Shown one piece after another: positions 10,873 through 13,413 of a DNA stretch of 64,000 bases. Below the pieces are notes generated by a model. That model saw only the letters and a list, made by a program, of their open reading frames with translations. It searched no databases and was not told the DNA's origin. Numbering within the stretch: position 1 is the stretch's first letter; each line of letters begins with the position of its first letter. The position numbers were made by a program, and so were the translations under genes. This DNA is from Maribacter sp. MJ134 (GTDB taxonomy: Bacteria; Bacteroidota; Bacteroidia; Flavobacteriales; Flavobacteriaceae), in contig NZ_CP034570.1 in the NCBI RefSeq assembly GCF_003970695.1, positions 1,302,001 to 1,366,000 of the forward strand, in the 5' to 3' direction.

Positions 10873-13413
10873 ATGAATGCCGGTTTTCTTCAAACACCAG
10901 TTGCTTATCTAAAAGGCGTTGGCCCTAACCGGGCGGAAAGCCTTCAATCTGAGTTGGGTATTCATGTGTATCAAGACTTACTGAATCTTTTTCCCAACAG
11001 ATACATAGACAAGACGCAATACTATAAAATAAACCAGCTACAGAAAAGTAATGCAGATGTTCAGATTATTGGCAAAATAGTTCATCTGAAGACGGTTGAG
11101 CAAAAGAAAGGAACGCGTCTTGTAGCCAAATTTCAAGATGACACTGGTGAAATGGAATTGGTTTGGTTTCGGGGTCAAAAATGGATTCGAGAGAATTTAA
11201 AACTCAATACACCCTACGTAATTTTCGGAAAATGTAACTGGTTCAACGGGGTCTTCTCTATGCCTCACCCGGAGCTAGAACTACTGAAGGAACACCAACA
11301 GGGATTAAAAGTGCATATGCAGCCCGTGTATCCATCGACCGAAAAGCTTAGCAACAAAGGTGTCACCAATAGAGTCATCAGTAAATTAATGCAGCAACTT
11401 TTCTTGGAGACCAAGGGCAAGTTTTCCGAAACACTCTCCGATGCGCTCTTACAAGAACTAAAATTGATATCCAAGAGTGAAGCACTATTCAATATTCATT
11501 TTCCTAAGAGTCAGGAACTACTGGCAAAAGCCCAGTTCCGTTTGAAATTTGAAGAATTATTCTATCTGCAGATGCAGCTTATTGCTAAGAACATGCTGCA
11601 CAAACAGCGAATAAAAGGATATAATTTTGACCAAGTAGGAGAACTGTTCAATGATTTTTATGCAAATCAGTTACCTTTTGAATTAACCAATGCGCAAAAA
11701 AGGGTCGTCAAGGAAATCAGGGCAGATTTGGGGAGCAATGCCCAGATGAACCGATTATTACAAGGAGACGTGGGTTCCGGAAAAACTATCGTTGCCGTAT
11801 TGACCATGTTGTTGGCTATAGATAATGGATTCCAAGCTTGTTTAATGGCTCCAACAGAAATTTTAGCCAATCAACATTATACCGGTATTTCGGCATTGCT
11901 AAAAGATACGGGGATAACCTGCGAACTGTTGACTGGCTCGGTAAAAAAGTCCGCTCGGAAACCCATACATGAACAACTGGAAAATGGGGAACTTCAGATA
12001 CTGATTGGTACGCACGCGTTATTGGAAGATAAGGTGAAATTTAAAAATTTAGGTTTGGCCATAATTGATGAGCAACATCGTTTTGGTGTGGCACAGCGAT
12101 CTAAACTTTGGCATAAAGGTAGCCCACCCCTAACCCCTCCCAAAGGGAGAGTAAAAGAAATTCATTACAAATACCAAACAGCAAGACCATCTACCTATGG
12201 GCTACTAAAAGAATTACAACAAGAAAACAAAAAACGAACCTCGGAGGCAGCGCAGTTACTTTGGCAGAGGTTGAAGACAGAACAAACATATGGTCAATTT
12301 CAGAGGCAGCATCATATAGATAAATTTATCGTTGATTTTGTATGTATTTCTAAAAAGTTGATTGTTGAAGTTGATGGAGGATATCACGACAACCCCTCTC
12401 TAAAAGAAGCCGATACTATGAGAACTCAAATTCTCAATGATTTTGGTTATAAAGTAATACGGTTTAAAAATGAAGAGGTAATCGATGCCATTGATGATGT
12501 ATTGCATACAATCGAAAGAACATTAAAAGGTCTACCCTCCGGGGCGGTTGGAGGGGCAATTCCACCTCATATCCTAGTAATGACGGCAACACCTATTCCT
12601 AGAACGCTAGCGATGAGTTTATATGGTGATTTGGATATTTCAGTTATTGATGAACTCCCACCTGGCAGAAAACCGATAAAGACCGTACATAGGTATGATT
12701 CCAATCGCTTAAAAGTATTTCGGTTTATCCGAGACGAAATTAAGAAAGGAAGACAGGTTTACATTGTATATCCACTCATACAAGAATCAGAAGCCTTGGA
12801 TTATAAGGATTTGATGGATGGATACGAAAGTATTGTGAGGGATTTTCCGATGCCGGAATTTCAGATATCCATTGTACATGGACAAATGAAACCCGTAGAT
12901 AAGGACTATGAAATGCAGCGTTTTGTCAATGGTGAAACCCAAATCATGGTTGCGACCACAGTGATAGAAGTGGGTGTTAACGTACCCAATGCCTCTGTTA
13001 TGATTATTGAAAGCGCGGAACGCTTTGGATTGTCTCAATTACACCAACTTCGGGGACGGGTTGGACGTGGAGCGGACCAAAGTTTTTGTATTTTAATGAC
13101 GAGCCATAAACTTTCATCAGAAGCAAAAACGAGGTTGGAGACTATGGTACGGACAAATGACGGATTTGAGATTGCCGAAGTAGACCTAAAACTGCGTGGT
13201 CCAGGTGATATTATGGGTACGCAACAAAGCGGTATTCTTAACTTAAAAATTGCGGATATTGTAAAGGATAACGAGATACTTAAATCCACTCGCTATTATG
13301 CTCTAAAGCTTCTAAAGGCCGACCCATCCCTAGAGAAACCAGAAAATTTGATTATTAGGCACAGCTATGCCCAATTAGTGAAATACAAGAATGTTTGGAA
13401 CTATATAAGTTGA
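10873..13413 (+). CDS. recG: ATP-dependent DNA helicase RecG with a nested DUF559 nuclease domain
   Basis: RecG reverses stalled replication forks and processes branched DNA. Normal parts are all present: N-terminal wedge/OB domain (about residues 60-160), Walker A GDVGSGKT (about 298-305), DEQH (399-402), TATPIPRT (571-578), and the C-terminal motifs with LHQLRGRVGRG. The protein is 846 residues. An insertion of about 146 residues (about 417-562) separates DEQHRFGVAQRSKLWHK from PPHILVMTATP, which are nearly contiguous in ordinary RecG. Removing it leaves 700 residues, the usual size. The insert is a DUF559 PD-(D/E)XK nuclease-like domain and the frame is open throughout. Either RecG tolerates the domain in a surface loop or it is impaired. 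The gene stands alone, just before the leucine operon. Confidence 0.95.
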   Translation: MNAGFLQTPVAYLKGVGPNRAESLQSELGIHVYQDLLNLFPNRYIDKTQYYKINQLQKSNADVQIIGKIVHLKTVEQKKGTRLVAKFQDDTGEMELVWFRGQKWIRENLKLNTPYVIFGKCNWFNGVFSMPHPELELLKEHQQGLKVHMQPVYPSTEKLSNKGVTNRVISKLMQQLFLETKGKFSETLSDALLQELKLISKSEALFNIHFPKSQELLAKAQFRLKFEELFYLQMQLIAKNMLHKQRIKGYNFDQVGELFNDFYANQLPFELTNAQKRVVKEIRADLGSNAQMNRLLQGDVGSGKTIVAVLTMLLAIDNGFQACLMAPTEILANQHYTGISALLKDTGITCELLTGSVKKSARKPIHEQLENGELQILIGTHALLEDKVKFKNLGLAIIDEQHRFGVAQRSKLWHKGSPPLTPPKGRVKEIHYKYQTARPSTYGLLKELQQENKKRTSEAAQLLWQRLKTEQTYGQFQRQHHIDKFIVDFVCISKKLIVEVDGGYHDNPSLKEADTMRTQILNDFGYKVIRFKNEEVIDAIDDVLHTIERTLKGLPSGAVGGAIPPHILVMTATPIPRTLAMSLYGDLDISVIDELPPGRKPIKTVHRYDSNRLKVFRFIRDEIKKGRQVYIVYPLIQESEALDYKDLMDGYESIVRDFPMPEFQISIVHGQMKPVDKDYEMQRFVNGETQIMVATTVIEVGVNVPNASVMIIESAERFGLSQLHQLRGRVGRGADQSFCILMTSHKLSSEAKTRLETMVRTNDGFEIAEVDLKLRGPGDIMGTQQSGILNLKIADIVKDNEILKSTRYYALKLLKADPSLEKPENLIIRHSYAQLVKYKNVWNYIS
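12121..12558 (+). mobile_element. In-frame DUF559 nuclease cassette inserted in recG
   Basis: The segment encodes about 146 residues foreign to RecG. The core (about 12238-12525) reads as DUF559: TSEAAQLLWQRLK, FQRQHHIDKFIVDFVC, KKLIVEVDGGYHD, and DFGYKVIRFKNEEV, with candidate catalytic Asp (IVDF), Glu (VEVDG) and basic residues. Its ends are GC-rich in otherwise AT-rich DNA. The left end carries a small hairpin CTCCC-AAA-GGGAG, the right end CCCTCC-n9-GGAGGG, and the two ends are imperfect inverted repeats (CCCCTAACCCCTCCC against the complement of the right end, CCCCTCCAACCGCCCC). The length stays a multiple of three with no stop, so the host protein is still read through. How such elements move is not known to me. 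Confidence 0.85.

Follow-up and report, generated by a model that had tools for sequence, protein, structure and literature searches.

The window, as we call the whole stretch of 64,000 nucleotides of Maribacter sp. MJ134 that was analysed, contains recG as a single open reading frame of 846 aa (10873-13413) that includes an in-frame insert. This insert is placed between motif II (DEQH) and motif III (TAT), and its 146 codons at 12121-12558 are open in the recG frame. On the one protein, Pfam recognises DUF559 with 98.5 bits (cut-off 20.6) together with DEAD, Helicase_C and RecG_wedge; on the insert alone, DUF559 (PF04480) reaches 103.8 bits against the cut-off of 20.6. The genome (4.0 Mb) holds one frame above the recG cut-off, the runner-up being a frame of 1117 aa below it. 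Two congeners have an empty site, which reads HKN-E-F-PPH, against HKG-[...]-A-IPPH at the filled one. The net gain over the empty site is about 145 codons, and the coordinates of the insert are correct within one codon. A first-pass annotation made from the letters of the DNA had described a recG of 846 codons with about 146 foreign residues between DEQH and TAT; open reading frame, Pfam and empty sites agree with it. The RecG of T. maritima has a short loop only at the point of insertion, which suggests a permissive place. A full-length model of the filled RecG from 38 close sequences was too poor (pTM 0.31) to tell whether the domain protrudes from the helicase. The features are compiled in the table.

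Table. Features of the interrupted recG gene (positions in the window)
Feature	Position	Strand	Basis or remark
recG N-terminal part: wedge/OB domain and helicase domain 1 through and beyond motif II (DEQH)	10873..12117	+	
In-frame cassette, G416-A562, replacing the dipeptide N-E of empty sites	12118..12558	+	comparison with empty sites
Left cassette end, G+C-rich, palindrome-like (CCACCCCTAACCCCTCCCAAAGGGAG)	12121..12151	+	alone not significant
DUF559 / Vsr-like PD-(D/E)XK nuclease domain	12217..12525	+	Pfam, alignment, profile, fold
D72, E83, D85	12334-12336, 12367-12369, 12373-12375	+	invariant, 91 sequences
Right cassette end (CCCTCCGGGGCGGTTGGAGGGGC), inverted versus left end in many relatives	12532..12558	+	alone not significant
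recG C-terminal part, starting just 5' of motif III (TATPIPRT), with Helicase_C and RecG domain 3	12559..13413	+	

The nuclease is the sole recognised protein domain of the cassette, and its core is kept in all host contexts aligned. D72, E83, D85, G86 and D98 are invariant in an alignment of 91 DUF559 sequences, which includes the window copy and was drawn from 112 DUF559 copies, near-copies and the most divergent ones being left out; the window copy has all five. Judged by the fold, D72, E83, D85 and D98 are likely the catalytic acidic residues of a PD-(D/E)XK-type enzyme. Their loss, which had been named beforehand as an argument against nuclease activity, has not occurred: the catalytic Asp/Glu residues are intact in this alignment. 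With a dN/dS of 0.08-0.28 in the ten closest pairs, the insert presents itself as an in-frame nuclease with intact predicted catalytic residues under purifying selection.

A model of the domain built on the same 91 sequences (pLDDT 79, pTM 0.69) resembles the Neisseria DUF559 protein NGO0050 (3hrl, Z 14.0), the catalytic domain of I-Bth0305I (3r3p, Z 11.1) and Vsr (1cw0, Z 9.6). Profile matches to the first two have E values of 6.1e-32 and 6.5e-8, respectively. The Vsr/PD-(D/E)XK-like fold attributed to DUF559 in the first-pass annotation is borne out by these three structures, and beyond DUF559 no solved structure comes closer than a homing-endonuclease domain (3r3p). The rank of Vsr alone proves little, since proteins of ciliate and Toxoplasma mitochondrial ribosomes score level with it (Z 8.5-9.8). 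Holliday-junction resolvases are middling structural matches (Z 4-6). PADLOC produced weak matches to the insert only, among them a "homing endonuclease" at 6e-4.

Filled, empty and remnant alleles of one and the same recG site exist in related species. Among 102 distinct recG sequences, 59 are empty, 29 are full and 14 have a short insert; these are chosen relatives and not a random sample, the empty and short-insert loci having been picked by similarity, odd match length or as genus mates. Before counting, L014 was removed as partial and L170 as coming from the genome of L088. At E <= 1e-40 the RecG query finds a match in 387 of the 397 genomes of the family, at least three of these matches (G058, G208, G318) being Mfd-like frames of 1075-1117 aa; in G105 recG lies on two contigs. 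Full and empty species occur together in nine genera (g1, g7, g20, g33, g110, g132, g157, g176, g197). The genus of the window is one that mixes both states: the window genome (G000) is full, and the sites of both congeners (G075, G286), sought as the sister-species comparison that had been recommended, are empty. The empty sites of sister species are clean and uniform in length. On the RecG tree the site changes between occupied and empty 22 times, and at least 16 of these changes are forced by strong branches. The short inserts are in frame and comprise 9-23 residues. Eleven of the 14 match a cassette end better than shuffled sequences do, three the right and eight the left one (p 0.005; one 0.015); L149, L154 and L204 show no such match.

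The ends of the cassette are convincing only by comparison, since the window copy alone does not go beyond shuffled sequences, whereas many of its relatives do. Of the G+C-rich ends with inverted repeats and hairpins that had been ascribed to the window copy, the composition stands (0.53 and 0.58 G+C in the outer 40 bases, against 0.35 in the A+T-rich core); the terminal inverted repeat (p = 0.13) and the end hairpins (p = 0.52 and 0.86) do not. A repeat search around the window's recG insert listed no inverted repeat at the ends and no direct repeat that could be a target-site duplication. Within the 29 recG cassettes, p falls below 0.05 for the terminal inverted repeat in 17, for the left hairpin in nine and for the right one in a single case. 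The terminal repeats of the recG copies are, by all appearances, worn. In 65 of the 112 distinct DUF559 copies, inverted repeats flanking the core exceed the 99th percentile of shuffles, and in the metH cassettes each end is itself palindromic (AGCCCCCCAACCCCCAAAGGGGGAGC ... GCTCCCCCTTTGGGGGCGGGGGGGGCT). No target motif shared across host sites could be established.

In the window genome the left-end pattern is found at three places with up to 3 mismatches, the strict palindrome at two, versus one control match per strand; with 2-3 places only, the palindromes are ruled out as an abundant repeat of this genome. Direct repeats around stand-alone DUF559 copies surpass the 99th percentile in 49 of 112 copies. 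At the 12 loci viewed, most of them include further palindromes, and they were not counted as target-site duplications. Some individual loci deserve mention. At L003 (1437-1930; on C1 of the window's genome near 741303-741578, beyond the window itself), a DUF559 gene that stands alone is flanked by inverted repeats of about 30 bp and also by a direct duplication of 49 bp (47/49 alike) over the apparent start of a neighbour gene; this may be a long, gene-restoring target duplication or a pair of paralogous gene starts. At L005 (1320-1530; on C1 of the window's genome near 360600-360790, again beyond the window), inspection revealed two palindromic repeats like cassette ends with no DUF559 match between them, one of which may be translated as N-terminal extension of an apparent trpG. 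At L062 and L063, direct repeats of about 110-130 bp, which include the palindromes, enclose a stand-alone DUF559 gene.

The recG gene is not the only host. Copies elsewhere, stand-alone and within genes, had been proposed as a check on mobility, and both kinds were found. The scan of GTDB genomes with the insert as query, of which the best 80 of 98 loci were kept, reaches close relatives only. Hosts named by NCBIfam are isoleucyl-tRNA synthetase (IleRS; L022, L031, L045), leucyl-tRNA synthetase at two sites (LeuRS; e.g. L023, L025), IcmF (L042), methionine synthase (MetH; L060), a RecD2-like protein (L027) and an epimerase-like protein (L037). L044 and L050 match DUF559 alone, and the flanks of L047 resemble L042. 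Among the genomes of the family, MetH (L108, L109, L114), IleRS (L101) and LeuRS (L102, L104, L112) are likewise interrupted; the hosts of further loci there were assigned by inspection. In MetH the cassettes occupy two sites, and all hosts are in frame. Twelve genomes were searched for ileS: seven have an uninterrupted copy, and in five the interrupted one is the sole copy over the cut-off, which implies that the interrupted proteins must work unspliced or else be spliced. Frames of at least 800 aa contain 52 of the 150 DUF559 matches listed; 90 are in frames of less than 300 aa, so stand-alone copies are common. Several of the stand-alone copies have in-frame stops (e.g. G292, G384, G378), and the listed copies in long host frames have none, partly by construction, since a stop would shorten the frame. 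The single metH frame of G215 (L114) holds two DUF559 cassettes at different in-frame sites. They share 83% DNA identity with each other and 65-76% with the four other metH cassettes compared; being closest to each other, they point to copying within one genome. A search for a vehicle yielded no close relative in viral contigs (13 loci, 36-44% identical), phages (two records, 27-30%) or plasmids (34 records, all <60%).

How much of this distribution is due to movement can be judged from the trees and from the divergence of neighbouring sequence. Cassettes group by host site. In the best cassette tree, 30 recG cassettes stay together, L170 (a tip labelled "long") being one of them, within a group of 32 (SH-aLRT 86) that also includes two Flavobacteriaceae ileS cassettes; the internal order is weakly supported. 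Broad host clades agree with cassette clades, so much of the descent is vertical. Taken as fixed trees, the cassette tree and the flank tree are each rejected by the other's data. When flank splits of >=95% are imposed on the cassette data, the AU test rejects them (p = 0.0002); with splits of >=99% only, p is 0.050, and for L083 alone, the clearest single case, 0.08. Mobility would have been doubtful, as the first-pass annotation had pointed out, if all relatives were filled in line with vertical descent and no copies existed elsewhere. What was found are nine mixed genera, other host genes and a disagreement of cassette and host trees that falls short of decisive, and its proposal of a mobile, intein-like, non-splicing cassette gains support from all three.

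In four of the ten pairs closest by flank (L018/L020, L010/L016, L007/L008 and L007/L009, the last two sharing L007), the synonymous divergence of the insert is below that of every flank window of equal length, e.g. 0.07 versus 0.36 for the whole flank; in the other six it is not. Counting all 406 pairs, 324 have an insert less diverged than the flank, which leaves room for a general effect of constraint or saturation. The borders are sharp. In L010/L016, 14 of 444 insert bases differ against 18/150 and 17/150 of the adjoining ones, and the first 54 and last 66 bases of the insert are identical. In L007/L008 no difference is seen in the last 69 insert bases, against 23 in the 150 bases to the right; on the left, however, identity also extends over the adjoining 36 bases. 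No co-conversion tract was seen in the pairs examined, divergence rising at or near the cassette ends, which counts against classical, recombination-driven homing with its long co-conversion. These comparisons support, short of proof, an exchange of the recG cassette from one species to another that starts and stops at the cassette ends. The sharp borders may reflect either very short repair tracts between diverged alleles or a transposition-like insertion at the palindromic ends.

We consider it probable that the insert is a copy of a mobile, non-splicing, homing-like endonuclease cassette, and the related cassettes in several key enzymes suggest a selfish element whose spread requires no splicing machine. 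Such an element would consist of a DUF559 nuclease reading frame, joined to the host frame at both ends and bounded by short G/C-rich palindromic ends. It would land in frame at permissive places of conserved housekeeping enzymes and there be translated as a permanent extra domain; since the host protein puts up with the addition, a splicing device would not be needed. Either as part of the fusion or after release from it, the nuclease domain could nick or cut alleles that lack the cassette, or the palindromic ends of the cassette itself, after which repair would copy the cassette in. That its own nuclease drives the movement we infer from conservation, purifying selection and kinship with a homing enzyme. 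The chances are about even that this amounts to a distinct class of mobile elements, i.e., a terminal-palindrome endonuclease cassette that does not splice, persists as a translated domain of essential enzymes, passes as a discrete unit from one species to the same codons of another and is copied to new in-frame sites within a genome, as in metH.

Part of the evidence can also be read as an old insertion. One or two early entries into the recG of Flavobacteriaceae-like ancestors would have been followed by vertical descent with many losses, leaving remnants or giving way to empty alleles by ordinary recombination, and the nuclease would be passive or dying. The recG cassettes that stay together in the best tree, adjoining two ileS cassettes, the broad host clades mirrored by them, the remnants, which point to loss, the p of 0.050 with the best-supported flank splits and the six of ten closest pairs of equal age are all in line with such a history. 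A dying nuclease is, however, hard to reconcile with invariant catalytic residues and a dN/dS of 0.08-0.28, nor would one expect clean empty sites of uniform length in sister species, cassettes younger than their flanks in four of the ten closest pairs or the conflict with flank splits of >=95% (p = 0.0002). Vertical inheritance with many losses is weakened by these findings, and we regard it as unlikely. It is likewise rather unlikely that the cassette was moved by another agent, be it a transposase acting in trans, recombination of the palindromic ends or natural transformation, with DUF559 serving in defence or mismatch-type repair. The palindromic ends, which at L005 occur without a DUF559 match, and the discrete borders without co-conversion would suit this idea. 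So would a DUF559-containing Vsr-like protein of Caulobacter, which is reported to be needed for the DNA-damage response when a cytosine methyltransferase is absent; a role as mismatch-repair endonuclease akin to Vsr has been proposed for it (PMC12907096). Yet the only domain recognised in the cassette is the nuclease, with a core kept in all hosts aligned, and its best solved relative outside DUF559 belongs to a homing enzyme.

A functional helicase-nuclease fusion, in which RecG gained a nuclease for cutting branched DNA, had been the alternative offered at the outset. An intact in-frame domain in the sole recG of the genome and the middling similarity to Holliday-junction resolvases (Z 4-6) are compatible with it. 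This idea fares badly, since the same cassette family resides in tRNA synthetases and methionine synthase, and in IcmF too, and its presence varies inside nine genera; we rate it as very improbable. An intein or intron that is spliced out would account for an in-frame insertion in conserved proteins and for the patchy distribution. Pfam found no Hint or intein domain at E <= 0.01, nor was there any among the 25 of 43 NCBIfam matches listed; Rfam returned no group I or group II intron family at E <= 1, the single match being Xist_exon4 (E 0.33, far below cut-off). Inteins are followed by Cys, Ser or Thr as the first residue after the insert, a rule given in PMC11855218; in the window copy Ile follows A562, and the 29 carriers vary at the aligned right end, some having Ser or Thr. 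Splicing is next to negligible as an explanation.

The favoured mobile, non-splicing cassette has partial precedents. The ShiLan domain, a homing insertion in a phage methylase, is likewise open in the host frame, patchy in distribution, associated with a homing-type endonuclease and devoid of a detected splicing domain; its HNH nuclease, however, is encoded in a different frame, and the model of the in-frame product is of poor confidence (PMC11855218). In the DUF559 cassette, by contrast, the nuclease itself is the in-frame domain, several chromosomal genes are hosts and the ends are palindromic. The same paper describes a lone LAGLIDADG endonuclease of these phage methylases, also within the host gene and with no intein or intron detected, which differs in that it is apparently inherited vertically and, in that account, known from one gene family (PMC11855218). 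Rickettsia palindromic elements (cited in PMC3733652) share the palindromes and the in-frame position in protein genes, but are short repeats, and the citing passage, by whose description alone they are likened here, mentions no nuclease. The WHO elements of yeast home into a conserved gene without protein splicing, too; they replace the 3' end of FBA1 (PMC7282813), whereas the DUF559 cassettes sit within the gene. The fold of the cassette nuclease is common to NGO0050 (3hrl) and the catalytic domain of I-Bth0305I (3r3p). The latter is intron-associated (its PDB name is "mobile intron protein"), in contrast to the cassette, which is also without a recognised separate DNA-binding domain. As far as these sources were read, none of the systems compared has key bacterial enzymes as hosts of an in-frame nuclease that looks active and is bounded by palindromic ends. 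No account of in-frame DUF559 cassettes was found in the open-licence literature, a scope outside of which most subscription papers lie.

The usual view is that a homing endonuclease has to reside in an element that splices itself out, since an insert left unspliced would disable a gene that the host needs. The insert described here looks like a folded nuclease that remains part of RecG, methionine synthase and the tRNA synthetases for isoleucine and leucine. The cassette may belong with the homing endonucleases in kind, possibly as a class of its own. If so, inteins and introns would not be the only solutions. A selfish role would then fall to at least some DUF559 proteins, to which Pfam assigns no known function, and the sites of insertion would disclose where key enzymes naturally tolerate an additional domain. 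For annotation this implies a warning: such proteins would be chimeras in which a mobile element is joined to a host enzyme, and should not be taken for new enzyme architectures.

A Myxococcales MAG (L044, in a methylase-like host by inspection) and a Nitrospiraceae MAG (L050) also have DUF559 cassettes that are in frame and have palindrome-like ends; given these taxa, the phenomenon may extend beyond Bacteroidota. G396 has seven DUF559 matches, including one in its interrupted ileS and others in frames of 1160 and 1075 aa, and is a candidate genome for current cassette activity.
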